NCBI GenBank assembly: GCA_026413225.1
Contig: JAPMTP010000091.1
Location: forward strand, 62,001 to 126,000
From: Otis tarda
Taxonomy: Eukaryota > Chordata > Aves > Otidiformes > Otididae
DNA: 64,000 nt
Reading direction: 5' to 3'
Shown: positions 16,087 through 61,163 of the stretch, piece after piece
Layout: each line of letters starts with the position of its first letter
Numbering within the stretch: position 1 is the stretch's first letter
Position numbers and translations under genes: made by a program
The notes under the pieces: model-generated
Database searches by the model: none
Told to the model about the DNA's origin: nothing
The model's input: the letters and a program-made list of their open reading frames with translations, nothing else

Positions 16087-16097
16087 TAAAACAATGA

Positions 16098-17725: not shown

Positions 17726-17796
17726 ATTCTTTAAGTGCATACATATATAGTTGTGATTAACTTATTGTCCCCATTTCTACGTGGTCCCCGATATCA

Positions 17797-17810: not shown

Positions 17811-17889
17811 TCACACTAAGTAAATTCTTTTACTTAAACAGTTTCCCTGAATGCTATGAAGCATCATACACGGTTTTGTTTAAGGGGTG

Positions 17890-19284: not shown

Positions 19285-19308
19285 TACTGCTTTTGGCTCG
19301 CATACTTG

Positions 19309-21465: not shown

Positions 21466-21576
21466 CAGGGCTTTCTTCAGCTGATGGAAGGCTCGATCTG
21501 ACTCAGCATCCCACTGGAGATCCTTTTGGTTAGCTGCTATCAGGGAATATAGGGGCTTAACAGGCAGACCCCATAA

Positions 21577-22624: not shown

Positions 22625-22634
22625 ATACAGAAAT

Positions 22635-23000: not shown

Positions 23001-23025
23001 TGGTTTAACTTTACATTTCCGATTT

Positions 23026-24304: not shown

Positions 24305-24310
24305 TTTGAG

Positions 24311-27300
24311 AAGAGCAGCAAGAGCTTTCCGTGCTGACCCTTTTCAAGTGAGAGATTGGCCAGACATTTGCTGTTTTAGTGCTTTGCTTCTTCTGCGCAG
24401 CTTGGACAAAGATCATTGCGGCTTTCGCGGTTCAAGTCGTGCAGCGAAGGCAGAGAGCCTCCTCGTCCGGATCCCCGGAGCTCTGCGGGAAAGAGCGAGA
24501 CGAGAGCCGCGACAGCTTCGGGTGCGGCCACCTCGCATCTGGCGGCGTTCATCCGCTGTTCGTCGGTTGGAGGACGACTTCCTTCTGCGCGGCTGGTTCC
24601 AAGTTGACGGTAACAGCCACTGTGCTAGCTGTGTAGGACAGTGAAGGGGCTCGACGTTTGTGTGTCCGTAGATCTGCTGGAAAGCGCACGTGAAGAGCAG
24701 TAAGGGCTTTCAGAGCAGCCGGTTCTCGTGCTGGAGAGTCGCCAGACATCCGCACTTTTAGTGCCTCACCACCCCAGACAGCTTGGAAAACACGATTGTA
24801 CCTGTCCCAGCGCAAGCTGTTCAGGACAGCAGCACAGCATTACAATGTTCGTGTGCCTTTCGGGCTGCTAGCAAGAAACGTCCGCAGCAGGCACTTCTCG
24901 TGCGGCAACAGTCGTGCCTTCTACGATCTTTGATGGCCTTTTTTTCCTCCGGGCAGCCGGCTGTAGCTGATGAGAGGTGTTGGTGAGCAAATCATCCATG
25001 GAAGAGAAGAGTCGCAATGCTTCTGCGCCGGCGGGGCCATTGCCAAGAGCGAGTGAAGAGCAGCAAGAGCTTTCCGTGCTGACCCTTTTCAAGTGAGAGA
25101 TTGGCCAGACATTTGCTGTTTTAGTGCTTTGCTTCTTCTGCGCAGCTTGGACAAAGATCATTGCGGCTTTCGCGGTTCAAGTCGTGCAGCGAAGGCAGAG
25201 AGCCTCGTCGTCCGGATCCCCGGAGCTCTGCGGCAAAGAGCGAGACGAGAGCCGCGACAGCTTCGGGTGCGGCCACCTCGCGTCTGGCGGCGAGCATCCG
25301 CTGTTCGTCGGTTGGAGGACGACTTCCTTCTGCGCGGCTGGTTCCAAGTTGACGGTAACTGCCAGTGTGCTAGCTGTGTAGGATAGTGAAGAGGCTCGAC
25401 GTTTGTGTGTCCGTAGATCTGCTGGAAAGCGCACGTGAAGAGCAGTAAGGGCTTTCAGAGCAGCCGGTTCTCGTGCTGGAGAGTCGCCAGACATCCGCAC
25501 GTTTAGTGCCTCCCCACCCCAGACAGCTTGGAAAACACGATTGTACCTGTCCCAGCGCAAGCTGTTCAGGAAAGCAGCACAGCACTACAATATTCGTGTG
25601 CCTTTCGGGCTGCTAGCAAGAAACGTCCGCAGCAGGCACTTCTCGTGCGGCAACAGTCGTGCCTTCTACGATCTTTGATGGCCTTTTTTCCTCCGGGCAG
25701 CCGGCTGTAGCTGATGAGAGGTGTTGGTGAGCAAATCATCCATGGAAGCGAAGAGTCGCAATGCTTCTGCGCCGGCAGGGCCGTTGCCAAGAGCGAGTGA
25801 AGAGCAGCAAGAGCTTTCCGTGCTGACCCTTTTCAAGTGAGAGATTGGCCAGACATTTGCTGTTTTAGTGCTTTGCTTCTTCTGCGCAGCTTGGACAAAG
25901 ATCATTGCGGCTTTCGCGGTTCAAGTCGTGCAGCGAAGGCAGAGAGCCTCGTCGTCCGGATCCCCGGAGCTCTGCGGCAAAGAGCGAGACGAGAGCCGCG
26001 ACAGCTTCGGGTGCGGCCACCTCGCGTCTGGCGGCGAGCATCCGCTGTTCGTCGGTTGGAGGACGACTTCCTTCTGCGCGGCTGGTTCCAAGTTGACGGT
26101 AACTGCCAGTGTGCCAGCTGTGTAGGACAGTGAAGGGGCTCGACGTTTGTGTGTCCGTAGATCTGCTGGAAAGCGCACGTGAAGAGCAGTAAGGGCTTTC
26201 AGAGCAGCCGGTTCTCGTGCTGGAGAGTCGCCAGACATCCGCACGTTTAGTGCCTCCCCACCCCAGACAGCTTGGAAAACACGATTGTACCTGTCCCAGC
26301 GCAAGCTGTTCAGGAAAGCAGCACAGCATTACAATGTTCGTGTGCCTTTCGGGCTGCTAGCAAGAAACGTCCGCAGCAGGCACTTCTCGTGCGGCAACAG
26401 TCGTGCCTTCTACGATCTTTGATGGCCTTTTTCCTCCGGGCAGCCGGCTGTAGCTGATGAGAGGTGTTGGTGAGCAAATCATCCACGGAAGCGAAGAGTC
26501 GCAATGCTTCTGCGCCGGCAGGGCCGTTGCCAAGAGCGAGTGAAGAGCAGCAAGAGCTTTCCGTGCTGACCCTTTTCAAGTGAGAGATTGGCCAGACATT
26601 TGCTGTTTTAGTGCTTTGCTTCTTCTGCGCAGCTTGGACAAAGATCATTGCGGCTTTCGCGGTTCAAGTCGTGCAGCGAAGGCAGAGAGCCTCCTCGTCC
26701 GGATCCCCGGAGCTCTGCGGCAAAGAGCGAGACGAGAGCCGCGACAGCTTCGGGTGCGGCCACCTCGCGTCTGGCGGCGAGCATCCGCTGTTCGTCGGTT
26801 GGAGGACGACTTCCTTCTGCGCGGCTGGTTCCAAGTTGACGGTAACTGCCAGTGTGCCAGCTGTGTAGGATAGTGAAGGGGCTCGACGTTTGTGTGTCCG
26901 TAGATCTGCTGGAAAGCGCACGTGAAGAGCAGTAAGGGCTTTCAGAGCAGCCGGTTCTCGTGCTGGAGAGTCGCCAGACATCCGCACGTTTAGTGCCTCC
27001 CCACCCCAGACAGCTTGGAAAACACGATTGTACCTGTCCCAGCGCAAGCTGTTCAGGACAGCAGCACAGCATTACAATGTTCGTGTGCCTTTCGGGCTGC
27101 TAGCAAGAAACGTCCGCAGCAGGCACTTCTCGTGCGGCAACAGTCGTGCCTTCTACGATCTTTGATGGCCTTTTTTCCTCCGGGCAGCCGGCTGTAGCTG
27201 ATGAGAGGTGTTGGTGAGCAAATCATCCACGGAAGCGAAGAGTCGCAATGCTTCTGCGCCGGCAGGGCCGTTGCCAAGAGCGAGTGAAGAGCAGCAAGAG

Positions 27301-30300
27301 CTTTCCGTGCTGACCCTTTTCAAGTGAGAGATTGGCCAGACATTTGCTGTTTTAGTGCTTTGCTTCTTCTGCGCAGCTTGGACAAAGATCATTGCGGCTT
27401 TCGCGGTTCAAGTCGTGCAGCGAAGGCAGAGAGCCTCGTCGTCCGGATCCCCGGAGCTCTGCGGCAAAGAGCGAGACGAGAGCCGCGACAGCTTCGGGTG
27501 CGGCCACCTCGCGTCTGGCGGCGAGCATCCGCTGTTCGTCGGTTGGAGGACGACTTCCTTCTGCGCGGCTGGTTCCAAGTTGACGGTAACTGCCAGTGTG
27601 CCAGCTGTGCAGGATAGTGAAGGGGCTCGACGTTTGTGTGTCCGTAGATCTGCTGGAAAGCGCACGTGAAGAGCAGTAAGGGCTTTCAGAGCAGCCGGTT
27701 CTCGTGCTGGAGAGTCTCCAGACATCCGCACGTTTAGTGCCTCACCACCCCAGACAGCTTGGAAAACACGATTGTACCTGTCCCAGCGCAAGCTGTTCAG
27801 GACAGCAGCACAGCATTACAATGTTCGTGTGCCTTTCGGGCTGCTAGCAAGAAACGTCCGCAGCAGGCACTTCTCGTGCGGCAACAGTCGTGCCTTCTAC
27901 GATCTTTGATGGCCTTTTTTCCTCCGGGCAGCCGGCTGTAGCTGATGAGAGGTGTTGGTGAGCAAATCATCCATGGAAGAGAAGAGTCGCAATGCTTCTG
28001 CGCCGGCAGGGCCGTTGCCAAGAGCGAGTGAAGAGCAGCAAGAGCTTTCCGTGCTGACCCTTTTCAAGTGAGAGATTGGCCAGACATTTGCTGTTTTAGT
28101 GCTTTGCTTCTTCTGCGCAGCTTGGACAAAGATCATTGCGGCTTTCGCGGTTCAAGTCGTGCAGCGAAGGCAGAGAGCCTCCTCGTCCGGATCCCCGGAG
28201 CTCTGCGGCAAAGAGCGAGACGAGAGCCGCGACAGCTTCGGGTGCGGCCACCTCGCGTCTGGCGGCGAGCATCCGCTGTTCGTCGGTTGGAGGACGACTT
28301 CCTTCTGCGCGGCTGGTTCCAAGTTGACGGTAACTGCCAGTGTGCCAGCTGTGTAGGACAGTGAAGGTGCTCGACGTTTGTGTGTCCGTAGATCTGCTAG
28401 AAAGCGCACGTGAAGAGCAGTAAGGGCTTTCAGAGCAGCCGGTTCTCGTGCTGGAGAGTCGCCAGACATCCGCACGTTTAGTGCCTCCCCACCCCAGACA
28501 GCTTGGAAAACACGATTGTACCTGTCCCAGCGCAAGCTGTTCAGGACAGCAGCACAGCATTACAATGTTCGTGTGCCTTTCGGGCTGCTAGCAAGAAACG
28601 TCCGCAGCAGGCACTTCTCGTGCGGCAACAGTCGTGCCTTCTACGATCTTTGATGGCCTTTTTTCCTCCGGGCAGCCGGCTGTAGCTGATGAGAGGTGTT
28701 GGTGAGCAAATCATCCACGGAAGCGAAGAGTCGCAATGCTTCTGCGCCGGCAGGGCCGTTGCCAAGAGCGAGTGAAGAGCAGCAAGAGCTTTCCGTGCTG
28801 ACCCTTTTCAAGTGAGAGATTGGCCAGACATTTGCTGTTTTAGTGCTTTGCTTCTTCTGCGCAGCTTGGACAAAGATCATTGCGGCTTTCGCGGTTCAAG
28901 TCGTGCAGCGAAGGCAGAGAGCCTCCTCGTCCGGATCCCCGGAGCTCTGCGGCAAAGAGCGAGACGAGAGCCGCGACAGCTTCGGGTGCGGCCACCTCGC
29001 GTCTGGCGGCGAGCATCCGCTGTTCGTCGGTTGGAGGACGACTTCCTTCTGCGCGGCTGGTTCCAAGTTGACGGTAACTGCCAGTGTGCCAGCTGTGTAG
29101 GATAGTGAAGGGGCTTGACGTTTGTGTGTCCGTAGATCTGCTAGAAAGCGCACGTGAAGAGCAGTAAGGGCTTTCAGAGCAGCCGGTTCTCGTGCTGGAG
29201 AGTCGCCAGACATCCGCACGTTTAGTGCCTCCCCACCCCAGACAGCTTGGAAAACACGATTGTACCTGTCCCAGCGCAAGCTGTTCAGGACAGCAGCACA
29301 GCATTACAATGTTCGTGTGCCTTTCGGGCTGCTAGCAAGAAACGTCCGCAGCAGGCACTTCTCGTGCGGCAACAGTCGTGCCTTCTACGATCTTTGATGG
29401 CCTTTTTTCCTCCGGGCAGCCGGCTGTAGCTGATGAGAGGTGTTGGTGAGCAAATCATCCATGGAAGCGAAGAGTCGCAATGCTTCTGCGCCGGCAGGGC
29501 CGTTGCCAAGAGCGAGTGAAGAGCAGCAAGAGCTTTCCGTGCTGACCCTTTTCAAGTGAGAGATTGGCCAGACATTTGCTGTTTTAGTGCTTTGCTTCTT
29601 CTGCGCAGCTTGGACAAAGATCATTGCGGCTTTCGCGGTTCAAGTCGTGCAGCGAAGGCAGAGAGCCTCGTCGTCCGGATCCCCGGAGCTCTGCGGCTAA
29701 GAGCGAGACGAGAGCCGCGACAGCTTCGGGTGCGGCCACCTCGCGTCTGGCGGCGAGCATCCGCTGTTCGTCGGTTGGAGGACGACTTCCTTCTGCGCGG
29801 CTGGTTCCAAGTTGACGGTAACTGCCAGTGTGCCAGCTGTGTAGGACAGTGAAGGGGCTCGACGTTTGTGTGTCCGTAGATCTGCTGGAAAGCGCACGTG
29901 AAGAGCAGTAAGGGCTTTCAGAGCAGCCGGTTCTCGTGCTGGAGAGTCGCCAGACATCCGCACGTTTAGTGCCTCCCCACCCCAGACAGCTTGGAAAACA
30001 CGATTGTACCTGTCCCAGCGCAAGCTGTTCAGGACAGCAGCACAGCATTACAATGTTCGTGTGCCTTTCGGGCTGCTAGCAAGAAACGTCCGCAGCAGGC
30101 ACTTCTCGTGCGGCAACAGTCGTGCCTTCTACGATCTTTGATGGCCTTTTTTCCTCCGGGCAGCCGGCTGTAGCTGATGAGAGGTGTTGGTGAGCAAATC
30201 ATCCACGGAAGCGAAGAGTCGCAATGCTTCTGCGCCGGCAGGGCCGTTGCCAAGAGCGAGTGAAGAGCAGCAAGAGCTTTCCGTGCTGACCCTTTTCAAG

Positions 30301-33300
30301 TGAGAGATTGGCCAGACATTTGCTGTTTTAGTGCTTTGCTTCTTCTGCGCAGCTTGGACAAAGATCATTGCGGCTTTCGCGGTTCAAGTCGTGCAGCGAA
30401 GGCAGAGAGCCTCCTCGTCCGGATCCCCGGAGCTCTGCGGCAAAGAGCGAGACGAGAGCCGCGACAGCTTCGGGTGCGGCCACCTCGCGTCTGGCGGCGA
30501 GCATCCGCTGTTCGTCGGTTGGAGGACGACTTCCTTCTGCGCGGCTGGTTCCAAGTTGACGGTAACTGCCAGTGTGCCAGCTGTGTAGGATAGTGAAGGG
30601 GCTCGACGTTTGTGTGTCCGTAGATCTGCTGGAAAGCGCACGTGAAGAGCAGTAAGGGCTTTCAGAGCAGCCGGTTCTCGTGCTGGAGAGTCGCCAGACA
30701 TCCGCACGTTTAGTGCCTCACCACCCCAGACAGCTTGGAAAACACGATTGTACCTGTCCCAGCGCAAGCTGTTCAGGACAGCAGCACAGCATTACAATGT
30801 TCGTGTGCCTTTCGGGCTGCTAGCAAGAAACGTCCGCAGCAGGCACTTCTCGTGCGGCAACAGTCGTGCCTTCTACGATCTTTGATGGCCTTTTTTCCTC
30901 CGGGCAGCCGGCTGTAGCTGATGAGAGGTGTTGGTGAGCAAATCATCCATGGAAGAGAAGAGTCGCAATGCTTCTGCGCCGGCAGGGCCGTTGCCAAGAG
31001 CGAGTGAAGAGCAGCAAGAGCTTTCCGTGCTGACCCTTTTCAAGTGAGAGATTGGCCAGACATTTGCTGTTTTAGTGCTTTGCTTCTTCTGCGCAGCTTG
31101 GACAAAGATCATTGCGGCTTTCGCGGTTCAAGTCGTGCAGCGAAGGCAGAGAGCCTCCTCGTCCGGATCCCCGGAGCTCTGCGGCAAAGAGCGAGACGAG
31201 AGCCGCGACAGCTTCGGGTGCGGCCACCTCGCGTCTGGCGGCGAGCATCCGCTGTTCGTCGGTTGGAGGACGACTTCCTTCTGCGCGGCTGGTTCCAAGT
31301 TGACGGTAACTGCCAGTGTGCCAGCTGTGTAGGACAGTGAAGGTGCTCGACGTTTGTGTGTCCGTAGATCTGCTAGAAAGCGCACGTGAAGAGCAGTAAG
31401 GGCTTTCAGAGCAGCCGGTTCTCGTGCTGGAGAGTCGCCAGACATCCGCACGTTTAGTGCCTCCCCACCCCAGACAGCTTGGAAAACACGATTGTACCTG
31501 TCCCAGCGCAAGCTGTTCAGGACAGCAGCACAGCATTACAATGTTCGTGTGCCTTTCGGGCTGCTAGCAAGAAACGTCCGCAGCAGGCACTTCTCGTGCG
31601 GCAACAGTCGTGCCTTCTACGATCTTTGATGGCCTTTTTTCCTCCGGGCAGCCGGCTGTAGCTGATGAGAGGTGTTGGTGAGCAAATCATCCACGGAAGC
31701 GAAGAGTCGCAATGCTTCTGCGCCGGCAGGGCCGTTGCCAAGAGCGAGTGAAGAGCAGCAAGAGCTTTCCGTGCTGACCCTTTTCAAGTGAGAGATTGGC
31801 CAGACATTTGCTGTTTTAGTGCTTTGCTTCTTCTGCGCAGCTTGGACAAAGATCATTGCGGCTTTCGCGGTTCAAGTCGTGCAGCGAAGGCAGAGAGCCT
31901 CCTCGTCCGGATCCCCGGAGCTCTGCGGCAAAGAGCGAGACGAGAGCCGCGACAGCTTCGGGTGCGGCCACCTCGCGTCTGGCGGCGAGCATCCGCTGTT
32001 CGTCGGTTGGAGGACGACTTCCTTCTGCGCGGCTGGTTCCAAGTTGACGGTAACTGCCAGTGTGCCAGCTGTGTAGGATAGTGAAGGGGCTCGACGTTTG
32101 TGTGTCCGTAGATCTGCTAGAAAGCGCACGTGAAGAGCAGTAAGGGCTTTCAGAGCAGCCGGTTCTCGTGCTGGAGAGTCGCCAGACATCCGCACGTTTA
32201 GTGCCTCCCCACCCCAGACAGCTTGGAAAACACGATTGTACCTGTCCCAGCGCAAGCTGTTCAGGACAGCAGCACAGCATTACAATGTTCGTGTGCCTTT
32301 CGGGCTGCTAGCAAGAAACGTCCGCAGCAGGCACTTCTCGTGCGGCAACAGTCGTGCCTTCTACGATCTTTGATGGCCTTTTTTCCTCCGGGCAGCCGGC
32401 TGTAGCTGATGAGAGGTGTTGGTGAGCAAATCATCCACGGAAGCGAAGAGTCGCAATGCTTCTGCGCCGGCAGGGCCGTTGCCAAGAGCGAGTGAAGAGC
32501 AGCAAGAGCTTTCCGTGCTGACCCTTTTCAAGTGAGAGATTGGCCAGACATTTGCTGTTTTAGTGCTTTGCTTCTTCTGCGCAGCTTGGACAAAGATCAT
32601 TGCGGCTTTCGCGGTTCAAGTCGTGCAGCGAAGGCAGAGAGCCTCCTCGTCCGGATCCCCGGAGCTCTGCGGCAAAGAGCGAGACGAGAGCCGCGACAGC
32701 TTCGGGTGCGGCCACCTCGCGTCTGGCGGCGAGCATCCGCTGTTCGTCGGTTGGAGGACGACTTCCTTCTGCGCGGCTGGTTCCAAGTTGACGGTAACTG
32801 CCAGTGTGCCAGCTGTGTAGGATAGTGAAGGGGCTCGACGTTTGTGTGTCCGTAGATCTGCTGGAAAGCGCACGTGAAGAGCAGTAAGGGCTTTCAGAGC
32901 AGCCGGTTCTCGTGCTGGAGAGTCGCCAGACATCCGCACGTTTAGTGCCTCCCCACCCCAGACAGCTTGGAAAACACGATTGTACCTGTCCCAGCGCAAG
33001 CTGTTCAGGACAGCAGCACAGCATTACAATGTTCGTGTGCCTTTCGGGCTGCTAGCAAGAAACGTCCGCAGCAGGCACTTCTCGTGCGGCAACAGTCGTG
33101 CCTTCTACGATCTTTGATGGCCTTTTTCCTCCGGGCAGCCGGCTGTAGCTGATGAGAGGTGTTGGTGAGCAAATCATCCACGGAAGCGAAGAGTCGCAAT
33201 GCTTCTGCGCCGGCAGGGCCGTTGCCAAGAGCGAGTGAAGAGCAGCAAGAGCTTTCCGTGCTGACCCTTTTCAAGTGAGAGATTGGCCAGACATTTGCTG

Positions 33301-36300
33301 TTTTAGTGCTTTGCTTCTTCTGCGCAGCTTGGACAAAGATCATTGCGGCTTTCGCGGTTCAAGTCGTGCAGCGAAGGCAGAGAGCCTCGTCGTCCGGATC
33401 CCCGGAGCTCTGCGGGCAAGAGCGAGACGAGAGCCGCGACAGCTTCGGGTGCGGCCACCTCGCGTCTGGCGGCGAGCATCCGCTGTTCGTCGGTTGGAGG
33501 ACGACTTCCTTCTGCGCGGCTGGTTCCAAGTTGACGGTAACTGCCAGTGTGCCAGCTGTGCAGGATAGTGAAGGGGCTCGACGTTTGTGTGTCCGTAGAT
33601 CTGCTGGAAAGCGCACGTGAAGAGCAGTAAGGGCTTTCAGAGCAGCCGGTTCTCGTGCTGGAGAGTCGCCAGACATCCGCACGTTTAGTGCCTCACCACC
33701 CCAGACAGCTTGGAAAACACGATTGTACCTGTCCCAGCGCAAGCTGTTCAGGACAGCAGCACAGCATTACAATGTTCGTGTGCCTTTCGGGCTGCTAGCA
33801 AGAAACGTCCGCAGCAGGCACTTCTCGTGCGGCAACAGTCGTGCCTTCTACGATCTTTGATGGCCTTTTTTCCTCCGGGCAGCCGGCTGTAGCTGATGAG
33901 AGGTGTTGGTGAGCAAATCATCCATGGAAGAGAAGAGTCGCAATGCTTCTGCGCCGGCAGGGCCGTTGCCAAGAGCGAGTGAAGAGCAGCAAGAGCTTTC
34001 CGTGCTGACCCTTTTCAAGTGAGAGATTGGCCAGACATTTGCTGTTTTAGTGCTTTGCTTCTTCTGCGCAGCTTGGACAAAGATCATTGCGGCTTTCGCG
34101 GTTCAAGTCGTGCAGCGAAGGCAGAGAGCCTCCTCGTCCGGATCCCCGGAGCTCTGCGGCAAAGAGCGAGACGAGAGCCGCGACAGCTTCGGGTGCGGCC
34201 ACCTCGCGTCTGGCGGCGAGCATCCGCTGTTCGTCGGTTGGAGGACGACTTCCTTCTGCGCGGCTGGTTCCAAGTTGACGGTAACTGCCAGTGTGCCAGC
34301 TGTGTAGGACAGTGAAGGTGCTCGACGTTTGTGTGTCCGTAGATCTGCTGGAAAGCGCACGTGAAGAGCAGTAAGGGCTTTCAGAGCAGCCGGTTCTCGT
34401 GCTGGAGAGTCGCCAGACATCCGCACGTTTAGTGCCTCCCCACCCCAGACAGCTTGGAAAACACGATTGTACCTGTCCCAGCGCAAGCTGTTCAGGACAG
34501 CAGCACAGCATTACAATGTTCGTGTGCCTTTCGGGCTGCTAGCAAGAAACGTCCGCAGCAGGCACTTCTCGTGCGGCAACAGTCGTGCCTTCTACGATCT
34601 TTGATGGCCTTTTTTCCTCCGGGCAGCCGGCTGTAGCTGATGAGAGGTGTTGGTGAGCAAATCATCCATGGAAGAGAAGAGTCTCAATGCTTCTGCGCCG
34701 GCAGGGCCGTTGCCAAGAGCGAGTGAAGAGCAGCAAGAGCTTTCCGTGCTGACCCTTTTCAAGTGAGAGATTGGCCAGACATTTGCTGTTTTAGTGCTTT
34801 GCTTCTTCTGCGCAGCTTGGACAAAGATCATTGCGGCTTTCGCGGTTCAAGTCGTGCAGCGAAGGCAGAGAGCCTCCTCGTCCGGATCCCCGGAGCTCTG
34901 CGGCAAAGAGCGAGACGAGAGCCGCGACAGCTTCGGGTGCGGCCACCTCGCGTCTGGCGGCGAGCATCCGCTGTTCGTCGGTTGGAGGACGACTTCCTTC
35001 TGCGCGGCTGGTTCCAAGTTGACGGTAACTGCCAGTGTGCCAGCTGTGTAGGACAGTGAAGGGGCTTGACGTTTGTGTGTCCGTAGATCTGCTGGAAAGC
35101 GCACGTGAAGAGCAGTAAGGGCTTTCAGAGCAGCCGGTTCTCGTGCTGGAGAGTCGCCAGACATCCGCACGTTTAGTGCCTCCCCACCCCAGACAGCTTG
35201 GAAAACACGATTGTACCTGTCCCAGCGCAAGCTGTTCAGGACAGCAGCACAGCATTACAATGTTCGTGTGCCTTTCGGGCTGCTAGCAAGAAACGTCCGC
35301 AGCAGGCACTTCTCGTGCGGCAACAGTCGTGCCTTCTACGATCTTTGATGGCCTTTTTTCCTCCGGGCAGCCGGCTGTAGCTGATGAGAGGTGTTGGTGA
35401 GCAAATCATCCACGGAAGCGAAGAGTCGCAATGCTTCTGCGCCGGCAGGGCCGTTGCCAAGAGCGAGTGAAGAGCAGCAAGAGCTTTCCGTGCTGACCCT
35501 TTTCAAGTGAGAGATTGGCCAGACATTTGCTGTTTTAGTGCTTTGCTTCTTCTGCGCAGCTTGGACAAAGATCATTGCGGCTTTCGCGGTTCAAGTCGTG
35601 CAGCGAAGGCAGAGAGCCTCCTCGTCCGGATCCCCGGAGCTCTGCGGCAAAGAGCGAGACGAGAGCCGCGACAGCTTCGGGTGCGGCCACCTCGCGTCTG
35701 GCGGCGAGCATCCGCTGTTCGTCGGTTGGAGGACGACTTCCTTCTGCGCGGCTGGTTCCAAGTTGACGGTAACTGCCAGTGTGCCAGCTGTGCAGGATAG
35801 TGAAGGGGCTCGACGTTTGTGTGTCCGTAGATCTGCTGGAAAGCGCACGTGAAGAGCAGTAAGGGCTTTCAGAGCAGCCGGTTCTCGTGCTGGAGAGTCG
35901 CCAGACATCCGCACGTTTAGTGCCTCACCACCCCAGACAGCTTGGAAAACACGATTGTACCTGTCCCAGCGCAAGCTGTTCAGGACAGCAGCACAGCATT
36001 ACAATGTTCGTGTGCCTTTCGGGCTGCTAGCAAGAAACGTCCGCAGCAGGCACTTCTCGTGCGGCAACAGTCGTGCCTTCTACGATCTTTGATGGTCTTT
36101 TTTCCTCCGGGCAGCCGGCTGTAGCTGATGAGAGGTGTTGGTGAGCAAATCATCCATGGAAGCGAAGAGTCGCAATGCTTCTGCGCCGGCAGGGCCGTTG
36201 CCAAGAGCGAGTGAAGAGCAGCAAGAGCTTTCCGTGCTGACCCTTTTCAAGTGAGAGATTGGCCAGACATTTGCTGTTTTAGTGCTTTGCTTCTTCTGCG

Positions 36301-44100: not shown

Positions 44101-47100
44101 TTAGTGCCTCCCCACCCCAGACAGCTTGGAAAACACGATTGTACCTGTCCCAGCGCAAGCTGTTCAGGAAAGCAGCACAGCATTACAATGTTCGTGCGCC
44201 TTTCGGGCTGCTAGCAAGAAACGTCCGCAGCAGGCACTTCTCGTGCGGCAACAGTCGTGCCTTCTACGATCTTTGATGGCCTTTTTTCCTCCGGGCAGCC
44301 GGCTGTAGCTGATGAGAGGTGTTGGTGAGCAAATCATCCATGGAAGAGAAGAGTCGCAATGCTTCTGCGCCGGCAGGGCCGTTGCCAAGAGCGAGTGAAG
44401 AGCAGCAAGAGCTTTCCGTGCTGACCCTTTTCAAGTGAGAGATTGGCCAGACATTTGCTGTTTTAGTGCTTTGCTTCTTCTGCGCAGCTTGGACAAAGAT
44501 CATTGCGGCTTTCGCGGTTCAAGTCGTGCAGCGAAGGCAGAGAGCCTCCTCGTCCGGATCCCCGGAGCTCTGCGGCAAAGAGCGAGACGAGAGCCGCGAC
44601 AGCTTCGGGTGCGGCCACCTCGCGTCTGGCGGCGAGCATCCGCTGTTCGTCGGTTGGAGGACGACTTCCTTCTGCGCGGCTGGTTCCAAGTTGACGGTAA
44701 CTGCCAGTGTGCCAGCTGTGTAGGATAGTGAAGGGGCTCGACGTTTGTGTGTCCGTAGATCTGCTGGAAAGCGCACGTGAAGAGCAGTAAGGGCTTTCAG
44801 AGCAGCCGGTTCTCGTGCTGGAGAGTCGCCAGACATCCGCACGTTTAGTGCCTCCCCACCCCGGACAGCTTGGAACACACGATTGTACCTGTCCCAGCGC
44901 AAGCTGTTCAGGAAAGCAGCACAGCATTACAATGTTCGTGTGCCTTTCGGGCTGCTAGCAAGAAACGTCCGCAGCAGGCACTTCTCGTGCGGCAACAGTC
45001 GTGCCTTCTACGATCTTTGATGGCCTTTTTTCCTCCGGGCAGCCGGCTGTAGCTGATGAGAGGTGTTGGTGAGCAAATCATCCATGGAAGAGAAGAGTCG
45101 CAATGCTTCTGCGCCGGCAGGGCCGTTGCCAAGAGCGAGTGAAGAGCAGCAAGAGCTTTCCGTGCTGACCCTTTTCAAGTGAGAGATTGGCCAGACATTT
45201 GCTGTTTTAGTGCTTTGCTTCTTCTGCGCAGCTTGGACAAAGATCATTGCGGCTTTCGCGGTTCAAGTCGTGCAGCGAAGGCAGAGAGCCTCCTCGTCCG
45301 GATCCCCGGAGCTCTGCGGCAAAGAGCGAGACGAGAGCCGCGACAGCTTCGGGTGCGGCCACCTCGCGTCTGGCGGCGAGCATCCGCTGTTCGTCGGTTG
45401 GAGGACGACTTCCTTCTGCGCGGCTGGTTCCAAGTTGACGGTAACTGCCAGTGTGCCAGCTGTGTAGGATAGTGAAGGGGCTCGACGTTTGTGTGTCCGT
45501 AGATCTGCTGGAAAGCGCACGTGAAGAGCAGTAAGGGCTTTCAGAGCAGCCGGTTCTCGTGCTGGAGAGTCGCCAGACATCCGCACGTTTAGTGCCTCCC
45601 CACCCCAGACAGCTTGGAAAACACGATTGTACCTGTCCCAGCGCAAGCTGTTCAGGACAGCAGCACAGCATTACAATGTTCGTGTGCCTTTCGGGCTGCT
45701 AGCAAGAAACGTCCGCAGCAGGCACTTCTCGTGCGGCAACAGTCATGCCTTCTACGATCTTTGATGGCCTTTTTTCCTCCGGGCAGCCGGCTGTAGCTGA
45801 TGAGAGGTGTTGGTGAGCAAATCATCCACGGAAGCGAAGAGTCGCAATGCTTCTGCGCCGGCAGGGCCGTTGCCAAGAGCGAGTGAAGAGCAGCAAGAGC
45901 TTTCCGTGCTGACCCTTTTCAAGTGAGAGATTGGCCAGACATTTGCTGTTTTAGTGCTTTGCTTCTTCTGCGCAGCTTGGACAAAGATCATTGCGGCTTT
46001 CGCGGTTCAAGTCGTGCAGCGAAGGCAGAGAGCCTCCTCGTCCGGATCCCCGGAGCTCTGCGGCAAAGAGCGAGACGAGAGCCGCGACAGCTTCGGGTGC
46101 GGCCACCTCGCGTCTGGCGGCGAGCATCCGCTGTTCGTCGGTTGGAGGACGACTTCCTTCTGCGCGGCTGGTTCCAAGTTGACGGTAACTGCCAGTGTGC
46201 CAGCTGTGTAGGATAGTGAAGGGGCTCGACGTTTGTGTGTCCGTAGATCTGCTGGAAAGCGCACGTGAAGAGCAGTAAGGGCTTTCAGAGCAGCCGGTTC
46301 TCGTGCTGGAGAGTCGCCAGACATCCGCACGTTTAGTGCCTCCCCACCCCGGACAGCTTGGAACACACGATTGTACCTGTCCCAGCGCAAGCTGTTCAGG
46401 AAAGCAGCACAGCATTACAATGTTCGTGTGCCTTTCGGGCTGCTAGCAAGAAACGTCCGCAGCAGGCACTTCTCGTGCGGCAACAGTCGTGCCTTCTACG
46501 ATCTTTGATGGCCTTTTTTCCTCCGGGCAGCCGGCTGTAGCTGATGAGAGGTGTTGGTGAGCAAATCATCCATGGAAGAGAAGAGTCGCAATGCTTCTGC
46601 GCCGGCAGGGCCGTTGCCAAGAGCGAGTGAAGAGCAGCAAGAGCTTTCCGTGCTGACCCTTTTCAAGTGAGAGATTGGCCAGACATTTGCTGTTTTAGTG
46701 CTTTGCTTCTTCTGCGCAGCTTGGACAAAGATCATTGCGGCTTTCGCGGTTCAAGTCGTGCAGCGAAGGCAGAGAGCCTCCTCGTCCGGATCCCCGGAGC
46801 TCTGCGGCAAAGAGCGAGACGAGAGCCGCGACAGCTTCGGGTGCGGCCACCTCGCGTCTGGCGGCGAGCATCCGCTGTTCGTCGGTTGGAGGACGACTTC
46901 CTTCTGCGCGGCTGGTTCCAAGTTGACGGTAACTGCCAGTGTGCCAGCTGTGTAGGATAGTGAAGGGGCTCGACGTTTGTGTGTCCGTAGATCTGCTGGA
47001 AAGCGCACGTGAAGAGCAGTAAGGGCTTTCAGAGCAGCCGGTTCTCGTGCTGGAGAGTCGCCAGACATCCGCACGTTTAGTGCCTCCCCACCCCGGACAG

Positions 47101-49300: not shown

Positions 49301-52300
49301 GCACGTTTAGTGCCTCCCCACCCCAGACAGCTTGGAAAACACGATTGTACCTGTCCCAGCGCAAGCTGTTCAGGAAAGCAGCACAGCATTACAATGTTCG
49401 TGTGCCTTTCGGGCTGCTAGCAAGAAACGTCCGCAGCAGGCACTTCTCGTGCGGCAACAGTCGTGCCTTCTACGATCTTTGATGGCCTTTTTTCCTCCGG
49501 GCAGCCGGCTGTAGCTGATGAGAGGTGTTGGTGAGCAAATCATCCATGGAAGAGAAGAGTCGCAATGCTTCTGCGCCGGCAGGGCCGTTGCCAAGAGCGA
49601 GTGAAGAGCAGCAAGAGCTTTCCGTGCTGACCCTTTTCAAGTGAGAGATTGGCCAGACATTTGCTGTTTTAGTGCTTTGCTTCTTCTGCGCAGCTTGGAC
49701 AAAGATCATTGCGGCTTTCGCGGTTCAAGTCGTGCAGCGAAGGCAGAGAGCCTCCTCGTCCGGATCCCCGGAGCTCTGCGGCAAAGAGCGAGACGAGAGC
49801 CGCGACAGCTTCGGGTGCGGCCACCTCGCGTCTGGCGGCGAGCATCCGCTGTTCGTCGGTTGGAGGACGACTTCCTTCTGCGCGGCTGGTTCCAAGTTGA
49901 CGGTAACTGCCAGTGTGCCAGCTGTGTAGGATAGTGAAGGGGCTCGACGTTTGTGTGTCCGTAGATCTGCTGGAAAGCGCACGTGAAGAGCAGTAAGGGC
50001 TTTCAGAGCAGCCGGTTCTCGTGCTGGAGAGTCGCCAGACATCCGCACGTTTAGTGCCTCCCCACCCCGGACAGCTTGGAACACACGATTGTACCTGTCC
50101 CAGCGCAAGCTGTTCAGGAAAGCAGCACAGCATTACAATGTTCGTGTGCCTTTCGGGCTGCTAGCAAGAAACGTCCGCAGCAGGCACTTCTCGTGCGGCA
50201 ACAGTCGTGCCTTCTACGATCTTTGATGGCCTTTTTTCCTCCGGGCAGCCGGCTGTAGCTGATGAGAGGTGTTGGTGAGCAAATCATCCATGGAAGAGAA
50301 GAGTCGCAATGCTTCTGCGCCGGCAGGGCCGTTGCCAAGAGCGAGTGAAGAGCAGCAAGAGCTTTCCGTGCTGACCCTTTTCAAGTGAGAGATTGGCCAG
50401 ACATTTGCTGTTTTAGTGCTTTGCTTCTTCTGCGCAGCTTGGACAAAGATCATTGCGGCTTTCGCGGTTCAAGTCGTGCAGCGAAGGCAGAGAGCCTCCT
50501 CGTCCGGATCCCCGGAGCTCTGCGGCAAAGAGCGAGACGAGAGCCGCGACAGCTTCGGGTGCGGCCACCTCGCGTCTGGCGGCGAGCATCCGCTGTTCGT
50601 CGGTTGGAGGACGACTTCCTTCTGCGCGGCTGGTTCCAAGTTGACGGTAACTGCCAGTGTGCCAGCTGTGTAGGATAGTGAAGGGGCTCGACGTTTGTGT
50701 GTCCGTAGATCTGCTGGAAAGCGCACGTGAAGAGCAGTAAGGGCTTTCAGAGCAGCCGGTTCTCGTGCTGGAGAGTCGCCAGACATCCGCACGTTTAGTG
50801 CCTCCCCACCCCAGACAGCTTGGAAAACACGATTGTACCTGTCCCAGCGCAAGCTGTTCAGGACAGCAGCACAGCATTACAATGTTCGTGTGCCTTTCGG
50901 GCTGCTAGCAAGAAACGTCCGCAGCAGGCACTTCTCGTGCGGCTACAGTCGTGCCTTCTACGATCTTTGATGGCCTTTTTTCCTCCGGGCAGCCGGCTGT
51001 AGCTGATGAGAGGTGTTGGTGAGCAAATCATCCACGGAAGCGAAGAGTCGCAATGCTTCTGCGCCGGCAGGGCCGTTGCCAAGAGCGAGTGAAGAGCAGC
51101 AAGAGCTTTCCGTGCTGACCCTTTTCAAGTGAGAGATTGGCCAGACATTTGCTGTTTTAGTGCTTTGCTTCTTCTGCGCAGCTTGGACAAAGATCATTGC
51201 GGCTTTCGCGGTTCAAGTCGTGCAGCGAAGGCAGAGAGCCTCCTCGTCCGGATCCCCGGAGCTCTGCGGCAAAGAGCGAGACGAGAGCCGCGACAGCTTC
51301 GGGTGCGGCCACCTCGCGTCTGGCGGCGAGCATCCGCTGTTCGTCGGTTGGAGGACGACTTCCTTCTGCGCGGCTGGTTCCAAGTTGACGGTAACTGCCA
51401 GTGTGCCAGCTGTGTAGGATAGTGAAGGGGCTCGACGTTTGTGTGTCCGTAGATCTGCTGGAAAGCGCACGTGAAGAGCAGTAAGGGCTTTCAGAGCAGC
51501 CGGTTCTCGTGCTGGAGAGTCGCCAGACATCCGCACGTTTAGTGCCTCCCCACCCCAGACAGCTTGGAAAACACGATTGTACCTGTCCCAGCGCAAGCTG
51601 TTCAGGACAGCAGCACAGCATTACAATGTTCGTGTGCCTTTCGGGCTGCTAGCAAGAAACGTCCGCAGCAGGCACTTCTCGTGCGGCAACAGTCATGCCT
51701 TCTACGATCTTTGATGGCCTTTTTTCCTCCGGGCAGCCGGCTGTAGCTGATGAGAGGTGTTGGTGAGCAAATCATCCACGGAAGCGAAGAGTCGCAATGC
51801 TTCTGCGCCGGCAGGGCCGTTGCCAAGAGCGAGTGAAGAGCAGCAAGAGCTTTCCGTGCTGACCCTTTTCAAGTGAGAGATTGGCCAGACATTTGCTGTT
51901 TTAGTGCTTTGCTTCTTCTGCGCAGCTTGGACAAAGATCATTGCGGCTTTCGCGGTTCAAGTCGTGCAGCGAAGGCAGAGAGCCTCCTCGTCCGGATCCC
52001 CGGAGCTCTGCGGCAAAGAGCGAGACGAGAGCCGCGACAGCTTCGGGTGCGGCCACCTCGCGTCTGGCGGCGAGCATCCGCTGTTCGTCGGTTGGAGGAC
52101 GACTTCCTTCTGCGCGGCTGGTTCCAAGTTGACGGTAACTGCCAGTGTGCCAGCTGTGTAGGATAGTGAAGGGGCTCGACGTTTGTGTGTCCGTAGATCT
52201 GCTGGAAAGCGCACGTGAAGAGCAGTAAGGGCTTTCAGAGCAGCCGGTTCTCGTGCTGGAGAGTCGCCAGACATCCGCACGTTTAGTGCCTCCCCACCCC

Positions 52301-55300
52301 AGACAGCTTGGAAAACACGATTGTACCTGTCCCAGCGCAAGCTGTTCAGGAAAGCAGCACAGCATTACAATGTTCGTGTGCCTTTCGGGCTGCTAGCAAG
52401 AAACGTCCGCAGCAGGCACTTCTCGTGCGGCAACAGTCGTGCCTTCTACGATCTTTGATGGCCTTTTTTCCTCCGGGCAGCCGGCTGTAGCTGATGAGAG
52501 GTGTTGGTGAGCAAATCATCCATGGAAGAGAAGAGTCGCAATGCTTCTGCGCCGGCAGGGCCGTTGCCAAGAGCGAGTGAAGAGCAGCAAGAGCTTTCCG
52601 TGCTGACCCTTTTCAAGTGAGAGATTGGCCAGACATTTGCTGTTTTAGTGCTTTGCTTCTTCTGCGCAGCTTGGACAAAGATCATTGCGGCTTTCGCGGT
52701 TCAAGTCGTGCAGCGAAGGCAGAGAGCCTCCTCGTCCGGATCCCCGGAGCTCTGCGGCAAAGAGCGAGACGAGAGCCGCGACAGCTTCGGGTGCGGCCAC
52801 CTCGCGTCTGGCGGCGAGCATCCGCTGTTCGTCGGTTGGAGGACGACTTCCTTCTGCGCGGCTGGTTCCAAGTTGACGGTAACTGCCAGTGTGCCAGCTG
52901 TGTAGGATAGTGAAGGGGCTCGACGTTTGTGTGTCCGTAGATCTGCTGGAAAGCGCACGTGAAGAGCAGTAAGGGCTTTCAGAGCAGCCGGTTCTCGTGC
53001 TGGAGAGTCGCCAGACATCCGCACGTTTAGTGCCTCCCCACCCCGGACAGCTTGGAACACACGATTGTACCTGTCCCAGCGCAAGCTGTTCAGGAAAGCA
53101 GCACAGCATTACAATGTTCGTGTGCCTTTCGGGCTGCTAGCAAGAAACGTCCGCAGCAGGCACTTCTCGTGCGGCAACAGTCGTGCCTTCTACGATCTTT
53201 GATGGCCTTTTTTCCTCCGGGCAGCCGGCTGTAGCTGATGAGAGGTGTTGGTGAGCAAATCATCCATGGAAGAGAAGAGTCGCAATGCTTCTGCGCCGGC
53301 AGGGCCGTTGCCAAGAGCGAGTGAAGAGCAGCAAGAGCTTTCCGTGCTGACCCTTTTCAAGTGAGAGATTGGCCAGACATTTGCTGTTTTAGTGCTTTGC
53401 TTCTTCTGCGCAGCTTGGACAAAGATCATTGCGGCTTTCGCGGTTCAAGTCGTGCAGCGAAGGCAGAGAGCCTCCTCGTCCGGATCCCCGGAGCTCTGCG
53501 GGCAAGAGCGAGACGAGAGCCGCGACAGCTTCGGGTGCGGCCACCTCGCGTCTGGCGGCGAGCATCCGCTGTTCGTCGGTTGGAGGACGACTTCCTTCTG
53601 CGCGGCTGGTTCCAAGTTGACGGTAACTGCCAGTGTGCCAGCTGTGTAGGATAGTGAAGGGGCTCGACGTTTGTGTGTCCGTAGATCTGCTGGAAAGCGC
53701 ACGTGAAGAGCAGTAAGGGCTTTCAGAGCAGCCGGTTCTCGTGCTGGAGAGTCGCCAGACATCCGCACGTTTAGTGCCTCCCCACCCCGGACAGCTTGGA
53801 ACACACGATTGTACCTGTCCCAGCGCAAGCTGTTCAGGACAGCAGCACAGCATTACAATGTTCGTGTGCCTTTCGGGCTGCTAGCAAGAAACGTCCGCAG
53901 CAGGCACTTCTCGTGCGGCAACAGTCGTGCCTTCTACGATCTTTGATGGCCTTTTTTCCTCCGGGCAGCCGGCTGTAGCTGATGAGAGGTGTTGGTGAGC
54001 AAATCATCCATGGAAGAGAAGAGTCGCAATGCTTCTGCGCCGGCAGGGCCGTTGCCAAGAGCGAGTGAAGAGCAGCAAGAGCTTTCCGTGCTGACCCTTT
54101 TCAAGTGAGAGATTGGCCAGACATTTGCTGTTTTAGTGCTTTGCTTCTTCTGCGCAGCTTGGACAAAGATCATTGCGGCTTTCGCGGTTCAAGTCGTGCA
54201 GCGAAGGCAGAGAGCCTCCTCGTCCGGATCCCCGGAGCTCTGCGGCAAAGAGCGAGACGAGAGCCGCGACAGCTTCGGGTGCGGCCACCTCGCGTCTGGC
54301 GGCGAGCATCCGCTGTTCGTCGGTTGGAGGACGACTTCCTTCTGCGCGGCTGGTTCCAAGTTGACGGTAACTGCCAGTGTGCCAGCTGTGTAGGATAGTG
54401 AAGGGGCTCGACGTTTGTGTGTCCGTAGATCTGCTGGAAAGCGCACGTGAAGAGCAGTAAGGGCTTTCAGAGCAGCCGGTTCTCGTGCTGGAGAGTCGCC
54501 AGACATCCGCACGTTTAGTGCCTCCCCACCCCGGACAGCTTGGAAACACACGATTGTACCTGTCCCAGCGCAAGCTGTTCAGGAAAGCAGCACAGCATTA
54601 CAATGTTCGTGTGCCTTTCGGGCTGCTAGCAAGAAACGTCCGCAGCAGGCACTTCTCGTGCGGCAACAGTCGTGCCTTCTACGATCTTTGATGGCCTTTT
54701 TTCCTCCGGGCAGCCGGCTGTAGCTGATGAGAGGTGTTGGTGAGCAAATCATCCATGGAAGAGAAGAGTCGCAATGCTTCTGCGCCGGCAGGGCCGTTGC
54801 CAAGAGCGAGTGAAGAGCAGCAAGAGCTTTCCGTGCTGACCCTTTTCAAGTGAGAGATTGGCCAGACATTTGCTGTTTTAGTGCTTTGCTTCTTCTGCGC
54901 AGCTTGGACAAAGATCATTGCGGCTTTCGCGGTTCAAGTCGTGCAGCGAAGGCAGAGAGCCTCCTCGTCCGGATCCCCGGAGCTCTGCGGCAAAGAGCGA
55001 GACGAGAGCCGCGACAGCTTCGGGTGCGGCCACCTCGCGTCTGGCGGCGAGCATCCGCTGTTCGTCGGTTGGAGGACGACTTCCTTCTGCGCGGCTGGTT
55101 CCAAGTTGACGGTAACTGCCAGTGTGCCAGCTGTGTAGGATAGTGAAGGGGCTCGACGTTTGTGTGTCCGTAGATCTGCTGGAAAGCGCACGTGAAGAGC
55201 AGTAAGGGCTTTCAGAGCAGCCGGTTCTCGTGCTGGAGAGTCGCCAGACATCCGCACGTTTAGTGCCTCCCCACCCCGGACAGCTTGGAACACACGATTG

Positions 55301-58300
55301 TACCTGTCCCAGCGCAAGCTGTTCAGGAAAGCAGCACAGCATTACAATGTTCGTGTGCCTTTCGGGCTGCTAGCAAGAAACGTCCGCAGCAGGCACTTCT
55401 CGTGCGGCAACAGTCGTGCCTTCTACGATCTTTGATGGCCTTTTTTCCTCCGGGCAGCCGGCTGTAGCTGATGAGAGGTGTTGGTGAGCAAATCATCCAT
55501 GGAAGAGAAGAGTCGCAATGCTTCTGCGCCGGCAGGGCCGTTGCCAAGAGCGAGTGAAGAGCAGCAAGAGCTTTCCGTGCTGACCCTTTTCAAGTGAGAG
55601 ATTGGCCAGACATTTGCTGTTTTAGTGCTTTGCTTCTTCTGCGCAGCTTGGACAAAGATCATTGCGGCTTTCGCGGTTCAAGTCGTGCAGCGAAGGCAGA
55701 GAGCCTCCTCGTCCGGATCCCCGGAGCTCTGCGGCAAAGAGCGAGACGAGAGCCGCGACAGCTTCGGGTGCGGCCACCTCGCGTCTGGCGGCGAGCATCC
55801 GCTGTTCGTCGGTTGGAGGACGACTTCCTTCTGCGCGGCTGGTTCCAAGTTGACGGTAACTGCCAGTGTGCCAGCTGTGTAGGATAGTGAAGGGGCTCGA
55901 CGTTTGTGTGTCCGTAGATCTGCTGGAAAGCGCACGTGAAGAGCAGTAAGGGCTTTCAGAGCAGCCGGTTCTCGTGCTGGAGAGTCGCCAGACATCCGCA
56001 CGTTTGAGTGCCTCCCCACCCCGGACAGCTTGGAAAACACGATTGTACCTGTCCCAGCGCAAGCTGTTCAGGAAAGCAGCACAGCATTACAATGTTCGTG
56101 TGCCTTTCGGGCTGCTAGCAAGAAACGTCCGCAGCAGGCACTTCTCGTGCGGCAACAGTCGTGCCTTCTACGATCTTTGATGGCCTTTTTTCCTCCGGGC
56201 AGCCGGCTGTAGCTGATGAGAGGTGTTGGTGAGCAAATCATCCATGGAAGAGAAGAGTCGCAATGCTTCTGCGCCGGCAGGGCCGTTGCCAAGAGCGAGT
56301 GAAGAGCAGCAAGAGCTTTCCGTGCTGACCCTTTTCAAGTGAGAGACTGGCCAGACATTTGCTGTTTTAGTGCTTTGCTTCTTCTGCGCAGCTTGGACAA
56401 AGATCATTGCGGCTTTCGCGGTTCAAGTCGTGCAGCGAAGGCAGAGAGCCTCCTCGTCCGGATCCCCGGAGCTCTGCGGCAAAGAGCGAGACGAGAGCCG
56501 CGACAGCTTCGGGTGCGGCCACCTCGCGTCTGGCGGCGAGCATCCGCTGTTCGTCGGTTGGAGGACGACTTCCTTCTGCGCGGCTGGTTCCAAGTTGACG
56601 GTAACTGCCAGTGTGCCAGCTGTGCAGGATAGTGAAGGGGCTCGACGTTTGTGTGTCCGTAGATCTGCTGGAAAGCGCACGTGAAGAGCAGTAAGGGCTT
56701 TCAGAGCAGCCGGTTCTCGTGCTGGAGAGTCGCCAGACATCCGCACGTTTAGTGCCTCCCCACCCCAGACAGCTTGGAAAACACGATTGTACCTGTCCCA
56801 GCGCAAGCTGTTCAGGAAAGCAGCACAGCATTACAATGTTCGTGTGCCTTTCGGGCTGCTAGCAAGAAACGTCCGCAGCAGGCACTTCTCGTGCGGCAAC
56901 AGTCGTGCCTTCTACGATCTTTGATGGCCTTTTTCCTCCGGGCAGCCGGCTGTAGCTGATGAGAGTTGTTGGTGAGCAAATCATCCATGGAAGAGAAGAG
57001 TCGCAATGCTTCTGCGCCGGCAGGGCCGTTGCCAAGAGCGAGTGAAGAGCAGCAAGAGCTTTCCGTGCTGACCCTTTTCAAGTGAGAGATTGGCCAGACA
57101 TTTGCTGTTTTAGTGCTTTGCTTCTTCTGCGCAGCTTGGACAAAGATCATTGCGGCTTTCGCGGTTCAAGTCGTGCAGCGAAGGCAGAGAGCCTCCTCGT
57201 CCGGATCCCCGGAGCTCTGCGGCAAAGAGCGAGACGAGAGCCGCGACAGCTTCGGGTGCGGCCACCTCGCGTCTGGCGGCGAGCATCCGCTGTTCGTCGG
57301 TTGGAGGACGACTTCCTTCTGCGCGGCTGGTTCCAAGTTGACGGTAACTGCCAGTGTGCCAGCTGTGCAGGATAGTGAAGGGGCTCGACGTTTGTGTGTC
57401 CGTAGATCTGCTGGAAAGCGCACGTGAAGAGCAGTAAGGGCTTTCAGAGCAGCCGGTTCTCGTGCTGGAGAGTCGCCAGACATCCGCACGTTTAGTGCCT
57501 CCCCCACCCCAGACAGCTTGGAAAACACGATTGTACCTGTCCCAGCGCAAGCTGTTCAGGAAAGCAGCACAGCATTACAATGTTCGTGTGCCTTTCGGGC
57601 TGCTAGCAAGAAACGTCCGCAGCAGGCACTTCTCGTGCGGCAACAGTCGTGCCTTCTACGATCTTTGATGGCCTTTTTTCCTCCGGGCAGCCGGCTGTAG
57701 CTGATGAGAGGTGTTGGTGAGCAAATCATCCATGGAAGAGAAGAGTCGCAATGCTTCTGCGCCGGCAGGGCCGTTGCCAAGAGCGAGTGAAGAGCAGCAA
57801 GAGCTTTCCGTGCTGACCCTTTTCAAGTGAGAGATTGGCCAGACATTTGCTGTTTTAGTGCTTTGCTTCTTCTGCGCAGCTTGGACAAAGATCATTGCGG
57901 CTTTCGCGGTTCAAGTCGTGCAGCGAAGGCAGAGAGCCTCCTCGTCCGGATCCCCGGAGCTCTGCGGCAAAGAGCGAGACGAGAGCCGCGACAGCTTCGG
58001 GTGCGGCCACCTCGCGTCTGGCGGCGAGCATCCGCTGTTCGTCGGTTGGAGGACGACTTCCTTCTGCGCGGCTGGTTCCAAGTTGACGGTAACTGCCAGT
58101 GTGCCAGCTGTGTAGGATAGTGAAGGGGCTCGACGTTTGTGTGTCCGTAGATCTGCTGGAAAGCGCACGTGAAGAGCAGTAAGGGCTTTCAGAGCAGCCG
58201 GTTCTCGTGCTGGAGAGTCGCCAGACATCCGCACGTTTAGTGCCTCCCCACCCCGGACAGCTTGGAACACACGATTGTACCTGTCCCAGCGCAAGCTGTT

Positions 58301-59071
58301 CAGGAAAGCAGCACAGCATTACAATGTTCGTGTGCCTTTCGGGCTGCTAGCAAGAAACGTCCGCAGCAGGCACTTCTCGTGCGGCAACAGTCGTGCCTTC
58401 TACGATCTTTGATGGCCTTTTTTCCTCCGGGCAGCCGGCTGTAGCTGATGAGAGGTGTTGGTGAGCAAATCATCCATGGAAGAGAAGAGTCGCAATGCTT
58501 CTGCGCCGGCAGGGCCGTTGCCAAGAGCGAGTGAAGAGCAGCAAGAGCTTTCCGTGCTGACCCTTTTCAAGTGAGAGATTGGCCAGACATTTGCTGTTTT
58601 AGTGCTTTGCTTCTTCTGCGCAGCTTGGACAAAGATCATTGCGGCTTTCGCGGTTCAAGTCGTGCAGCGAAGGCAGAGAGCCTCCTCGTCCGGATCCCCG
58701 GAGCTCTGCGGCAAAGAGCGAGACGAGAGCCGCGACAGCTTCGGGTGCGGCCACCTCGCGTCTGGCGGCGAGCATCCGCTGTTCGTCGGTTGGAGGACGA
58801 CTTCCTTCTGCGCGGCTGGTTCCAAGTTGACGGTAACTGCCAGTGTGCCAGCTGTGTAGGATAGTGAAGGGGCTCGACGTTTGTGTGTCCGTAGATCTGC
58901 TGGAAAGCGCACGTGAAGAGCAGTAAGGGCTTTCAGAGCAGCCGGTTCTCGTGCTGGAGAGTCGCCAGACATCCGCACGTTTAGTGCCTCCCCACCCCGG
59001 ACAGCTTGGAACACACGATTGTACCTGTCCCAGCACAAGCAGTTCAGGAAAGCACAGAGATACAATGTTCG

Positions 59072-59473: not shown

Positions 59474-59478
59474 TCAAA

Positions 59479-60762: not shown

Positions 60763-60787
60763 AAATCAGAAATGTAAAGTTAAACCA

Positions 60788-61153: not shown

Positions 61154-61163
61154 ATTTCTGAAT

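Follow-up and report, generated by a model that had tools for sequence, protein, structure and literature searches.

Arrays of a 744-bp satellite tetramer between inverted retroviral arms: a probable dispersed palindromic module in Otis tarda

Satellite and retroelement architectures at centromeres

In primate alpha satellite, homogenised multimers of diverged monomers lie near monomeric arrays, and in the palindromes of mammalian sex chromosomes inverted arms evolve together around a spacer by arm-to-arm gene conversion. A centromeric repeat of about 190 bp was reportedly described in birds by Madsen et al. in 1994. Duck APL-HaeIII (190 bp)/RBMII is presented as an avian ~190-bp centromeric repeat (PMC6435179, PMC11745021). 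For chicken centromeres, higher-order repeats of the 41-bp CNM are in print (PMC9974502), and the centromeres of Drosophila melanogaster contain retroelement islands inside satellite, to which CENP-A has been mapped (PMC6516634). Both retroelement islands and multimeric satellites are already known at centromeres.

From an assembly that totals 1.198 Gb in 116 contigs, we compared with these systems a window of 64,000 bp (bases 62001-126000 of the 194.5-kb contig C87) whose centre is an array of 744-bp units. Unlike in primate alpha satellite, the blocks of this multimer are more diverged and of unequal length, they have no consistent tie to their neighbours, and the array stands within an ERV palindrome. 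Unlike the palindromes of mammalian sex chromosomes, those found here are dispersed in satellite, carry a retrovirus and a tandem array, and exist in an estimated 100 copies.

As in D. melanogaster, retroelement-rich complex islands of similar composition on several chromosomes lie in large satellite arrays; the most enriched element there, however, is G2/Jockey-3, whereas the islands described here combine palindromic ERV arms with a satellite core and are known from sequence alone (PMC6516634). The likeness to chicken lies in a bird centromere with a multimeric satellite and, once, an ERV core; but the CNM multimers consist of 26-98 copies of the 41-bp repeat, and the core of chromosome 32 is made of three Kronos_I ERVs in tandem on that one chromosome, instead of a dispersed palindrome around a 744-bp tetramer (PMC9974502). 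The monomers surrounding our array resemble the avian ~190-bp repeats, as described, in length (190-191 bp), GC content (52-56%) and monomer identity (~80-86%); the cited parts of those reports describe neither a tetramer nor an ERV palindrome (PMC6435179, PMC11745021). Our literature search, which covered titles and abstract openings and had most subscription papers and preprints outside its coverage, found neither an avian satellite of 744 bp nor any bird centromere with a dispersed ERV palindrome, and two exact words searched in viral contigs gave no match.

The 744-bp unit and the 191-bp monomer family

The 744-bp array (window 24311-59071, plus strand) consists of 46 complete units followed by a partial one of 541 bp, after which the plus-strand array ends near 59071. 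Its 47 unit anchors run from 24308 to 58531, and each of the 46 intervals between them measures 743-745 bp. The units are near-identical (mean pairwise identity 99.3%, minimum 97.5%, over the 46), while the four blocks within them are only 51-61% alike (39-49% diverged), which is the organization of a higher-order repeat. In one representative unit (25053-25796, plus strand) the blocks occupy unit positions 1-190, 191-383, 384-560 and 561-744, giving lengths of 190, 193, 177 and 184 bp when the boundaries are taken from alignment to the 191-bp consensus. Three of the six block-to-block comparisons (B1-B4, B2-B3 and B3-B4) do not rise above their own best shuffle.

An earlier note on this DNA had proposed that the unit is a tetramer of the same family as the neighbouring 191-bp satellite, and our alignments bear this out. 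All four blocks are homologous to the 191-bp monomer in register and in the same orientation, block 2 being the weakest. Aligned with the 191-bp consensus, blocks 1 to 4 are 59.5, 58.9, 56.9 and 58.5% identical (gaps counted), with z of 6.5, 5.3, 5.0 and 7.4 respectively, and every block scores above all 500 dinucleotide shuffles; reverse-complemented blocks score -4.5 to 10 and do not stand out. The whole unit scores 310 against four 191-bp monomers, compared with at most 202 against two, three, five or six. When the unit was searched with a profile built from 191-bp, 190-bp and old monomers, all four blocks were matched on the same strand and in register, with E-values of 3.5e-10 for block 4, 1.8e-8 for block 1, 1.8e-4 for block 3 and only 0.58, which is not significant, for block 2 (the best of 20 shuffled decoys had an E-value of 3.2, and a reversed decoy gave no match); blocks 4 and 1 are those whose kinship to the monomer had been pointed out before. 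Descent of the blocks and the 191-bp monomer from a common ancestor is well supported in the case of three blocks, and the fourth, block 2, has support as well.

The sub-period of the unit, expected under the same proposal, is also present. Ungapped cyclic autocorrelation peaks at 191 (0.351, 5.5 sd) and a second time at 362 (0.332, 4.4 sd); the highest value among 500 base shuffles was 0.343, which only the peak at 191 exceeds. A self-rotation alignment of the unit was uninformative, since end gaps absorbed the shift, and the autocorrelation replaced it. No open frame runs through the array, each unit containing 3-7 stops in every frame. No CENP-B box with zero or one mismatch is present in the 744-, 191- and 190-bp consensus sequences; the 744-bp consensus has two sites that each differ from the box at two positions.

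The monomer that scores best differs from block to block: the 190-bp monomer for blocks 1 and 2, an old monomer for block 3, and the 191-bp monomer for block 4. Identity of the blocks to the 190-bp and older monomers is 53-61%, with two of the old monomers scoring lower because they run into non-satellite sequence, and the 191- and 190-bp monomers are themselves 90% alike. Given this variation and the 39-49% divergence among blocks, nothing indicates that the array now next to it gave rise to the tetramer. Judged by these alignments, the unit is a homogenised tetramer and a distant, old relative of the 191-bp family, and it may have an old origin in the neighbouring 191-bp array. The suggestion that one family exists side by side in monomeric and tetrameric form therefore holds for a distant family, but does not extend to a consistent tie with the adjacent array.

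Around the 744-bp array, ~190-bp monomers occur in long tandem arrays, as in the avian centromeric satellites. The 191-bp array (2650-13958, minus strand) has 59 monomers with a mean pairwise identity of 86%; adjacent monomers (lag 1) share 88.6%, those at lag 30 only 85.6%. It is followed, across an inversion point at 13968/13969, by a short 190-bp array of about 8.7 monomers (13969-15632, plus strand), opposite in orientation to the array next to it and situated on one side of the island, and then by old diverged monomers of the 190 family at the outer arm end (15633-15965, minus strand), whose right-arm counterpart shares 66-71% identity with the other monomer types in the comparison. The best-partner lags within the 191-bp array have faint peaks at 8, 11 and 19 monomers, and divergence rises toward the right edge of this array.

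Palindromic islands in the window and on other contigs

The 744-bp array is flanked by a minus-strand ERV on the left and a plus-strand ERV on the right, with their gag sides inward; the island on C87 reads old satellite, CR1-like element, LTR-like stretch, gammaretrovirus-like ERV, 744-bp units, and then the mirror order. The left palindrome arm (15604-24717) comprises the old satellite, a CR1-like element, an LTR-like stretch, the ERV and about 0.4 kb of 744-bp sequence. Its inverted copy, the right arm, begins at 59066, is cut by the window end at 64000 and continues to C87:129756. The arms are 97.7-98.2% identical in three aligned pieces: 20783-24717 versus 59066-63005 (98.0%), 19725-20724 versus 63005-64000 (97.7%), and 15604-19222 versus the right arm past the window end (98.2%). 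Where the core ends on the right, the right arm starts with an inverted ~0.4-kb piece of the 744-bp unit (59066-59474, minus strand).

The degraded ERV of the left arm (19600-24310, minus strand, pol to gag) joins the 744-bp array with its gag side at unit position 3, referred to here as the type I junction. The right-arm ERV (59475-64000, plus strand) contains Gag_p30 (60277-60762), RVT_1 (61119-62156), RNase H (62296-63117) and an integrase core (63193-63999). Its placement as a gammaretrovirus-like class I ERV is based on Gag_p30 (7e-23) together with RVT_1, RNase H and rve matched in separate pieces, one of five pieces having no match. Farther out are the element at 16100-16790, which we take to be CR1-like, and a stretch at 17277-17720, presumably an LTR, which has a 91.9% identical inverted copy at 1925-2365. 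The CR1-like element is present in five of six fetched arm-end stretches of contig C33, the sixth (right arm of island C33B) beginning beyond the element.

A second, smaller palindrome with ERV leader and LTR-like sequence and without 744-bp units lies inside the 191-bp array (1-1664). This island, seen over window 1-2365 together with C87:60001-62000, consists of an LTR-like part, a stretch that we presume to be primer-site-like and an ERV leader, with a mirror point at about 840. Between its inner halves 643 of 644 aligned bases are alike, its LTR-like halves are 99.1% identical, no 744 core was seen, and old satellite monomers border it on both sides.

The larger architecture recurs. In all seven islands whose flanks were read (C87, three on C33, and one each on C24, C5 and C11; five contigs), the 744-bp array is enclosed by inverted, head-to-head ERVs; a further 744-bp stretch on C29 was read inside the array only. 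Three islands of the C87 build lie near a contig end on C33, and their left outer boundary is common to all three and C87, while the right one is common to two of three, the third, that of C33B, falling outside the stretch examined. The right arm of C33C begins ~0.7 kb further into the ERV. In C33A (C33:1855432-1859250) the core is reversed relative to C87 and C33B, with a short plus-strand piece on the left and the main array running on the minus strand, an arrangement that inversion of the spacer through arm-to-arm recombination could produce.

These flanks bear directly on the likeness to the primate alpha-satellite pattern that the earlier note drew. In a primate-like centromere the 744-bp tetramer would be a higher-order repeat derived from neighbouring 191-bp monomers and would form an active core flanked by older monomers. 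The in-register tetramer homology, the 99.3% unit identity and the best match of block 4 to the 191-bp consensus agree with such a centromere, but the strongly diverged blocks do not consistently match the neighbouring monomer best, and the array edges are ERV arms in 7/7 islands read, with no monomer gradient. This pattern is not what we find, and we regard a primate-like origin as very unlikely.

The extent of the dispersal was estimated with short sequence words, none of which gave a match with its reversed control. The 28-bp word of the 744-bp unit (≤2 mismatches) occurs at 1013 places. The 40-bp outer boundary (≤3 mismatches) occurs at 217 places genome-wide, half of which would give an estimate of about 100 islands. 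Of these 217, the 100 boundaries listed match all 40 bp exactly and are spread over 35 contigs; their neighbours within 45 kb form 34 inward, one outward and three same-direction pairs, and 34 inward pairs were reached by none of 10,000 random strand assignments. Among the same 100 of 217 boundaries, the inward pairs have a median size of 18.7 kb (7.2-39.3), and successive islands are separated, right end to left end, by a median of 108 kb (21 cases).

The exact ERV-744 junction word is found at 32 places on 11 contigs, with ten inward pairs and one outward pair within 40 kb. A second (type II) junction, at which the ERV at the window equivalent of 23184 is followed by ~20 bp and then by unit position ~632, is present in both arms of the C24, C5 and C11 islands. 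The ERV leader word (36 bp, ≤2 mismatches) has 83 places on 30 contigs, forming 22 inward, two outward and five same-direction pairs within 40 kb, with many of the 83 having no close partner; from the same-direction and unpaired leaders it follows that some islands are rearranged or missing an arm end. Near the starts of C7, C8, C9 and C19, leader words stand in same-direction pairs 16-26 kb apart.

The islands lie within the 191-bp satellite wherever outer flanks were sampled (C87, C33, C24 and C5). On C87 the satellite extends over C87:162-61286 and C87:129728-194514, on C33 it was found in all six sampled 2-kb stretches between and around the three islands, and it was also seen outside the C24 and C5 islands. 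Beside the islands of C87, C33B and C33C an opposite-orientation 190-bp stretch is followed by a return to the main array orientation (in C33A this return falls beyond the fetched stretch), as would be expected of an inverted duplication healed in satellite. The 191-bp word (39 bp, ≤2 mismatches) occurs at 46,265 places; the first 100 of these fall at one interior locus each on C1, C3 and C4, and on C5 and C6 they fall at the contig start as well as at one place in the interior. The 744 and ERV-leader matches listed on C7-C33 are no farther than ~0.6 Mb from a contig start or, for contigs of known length, from the end, with contigs such as C39, C67, C96 and C101 left out of this placement, and C5 additionally has such matches at 11.1-11.3 Mb beside its interior 191-bp locus. 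Centromeres may take such positions in an assembly, and the satellite that holds these retroelement-rich islands, in large arrays on many contigs, is probably centromeric.

Proposed history and homogenisation of the islands

In our view the 744-bp array is likely to form the core of a palindromic module, dispersed through the genome, that goes back to one fold-back founder and was copied between probable centromeric satellite arrays, with conversion between its arms and local homogenisation of its core. In this history, an old tetramer of the 190 family would have come to lie beside a gammaretrovirus-like ERV within satellite, and a fold-back (inverted duplication) would have produced the head-to-head ERV palindrome around it. 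The whole module, outer boundaries included, would then have been copied, most likely through inter-array recombination or segmental duplication, into satellite on many chromosomes. Arm-to-arm gene conversion would keep the arms of an island partly alike, while the 744 core would expand, contract and homogenise locally.

The identity of the 100 listed boundaries across 35 contigs could also suggest that the palindrome is mobile as a whole, carried into satellite by retroviral or some other machinery. We think this very unlikely, as the common ends consist of old satellite beside the CR1-like element and not of LTR ends, which disfavours retroviral integration; moreover, the junctions and inversion points fall in satellite, and palindromic RNA is in general a poor template. 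Independent events, i.e., repeated ERV insertion into 744-bp arrays or palindromes arising many times, might account for the two junction types, but are extremely unlikely to have produced the same 40-bp outer boundary at the 100 listed places, one exact junction common to 11 contigs and the other to three. False inverted joins in repeats, for which everything lies inside satellite and C87 ends in satellite on both sides, would hardly explain an architecture that recurs at many loci with 0-1.5% difference between ERV arms, leader-to-leader spacings of 0.6-35 kb, and, among the contigs read, lengths of up to 23 Mb; an assembly artefact is extremely unlikely.

For the single copied palindrome that we favour, the divergence within and between islands indicates how its parts may have evolved. 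Over 0.49 kb the ERV arms are 99.1% identical within the seven islands and 97.9% between them (differences of 0.9 and 2.1% respectively), a result reached by three of 5000 random pairings, and the C5 arms have no differences in 851 positions. This closer likeness of the two arms of one island, together with the type II junction variants that are present in both arms of C5 and likewise of C11, fits gene conversion between arms. Such conversion would be partial, since several arms are closest to an arm of another island; the right arms of C33B and C33C, for instance, are the same over the 0.49 kb.

The 744-bp units are homogenised island by island, with identities of 99.3% in C87 (46 units), 99.3% in C33A (three units), 99.7% in C33B (five) and, least, 96.8% in C33C (five), versus 93.9-95.1% between islands except for B-C (97.7%). 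The divergence of the units between islands (~5%) is greater than that of the ERV arms, which probably means either that a different founder unit was homogenised in each island or that change is faster in the core. The CpG observed/expected ratio is 0.92 in the 744-bp unit, 0.68 in the 191-bp monomer and 0.53-0.57 in the ERV. By one and the same definition, the CpG-transition excess of the 744-bp units between islands is 2.1-3.5 in five of six pairs and 0 in B-C, and it is 8.9 and 18.8 in two C87 arm stretches, while the share of CpG changes does not differ significantly between 744-bp units and arms (4/14 versus 26/61, p 0.38). These values give no more than a hint of possible germline hypomethylation of the 744 core.

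Here a single palindromic module joins a retroelement and a multimeric satellite, in an estimated hundred copies across probable centromeres of one vertebrate. With its fixed breakpoints and two junction types it could serve as a natural tracer of exchange between non-homologous centromeres, and its copies would allow arm-to-arm conversion and local satellite amplification to be followed one by one. It would also let one ask if the kinetochore forms at such islands. That the module acts as a selfish centromere unit seems rather doubtful to us; its homogeneous CpG-rich core or its ERV arms would then seed CENP-A or cohesion, its spread to an estimated 100 sites would reflect selection for centromere strength, and the palindromic form would aid spread and homogenisation.

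The differences between islands in the 744-bp units are rich in transversions, with ts/tv of 0.33-0.70, versus 0.88-2.64 in the ERV and outer-arm comparisons (the pairs of old monomers and of small palindromes have too few changes to tell). Compared with the pooled C87 arms (61 transitions, 32 transversions), three island pairs gave p of 0.009, 0.015 and 0.0003.
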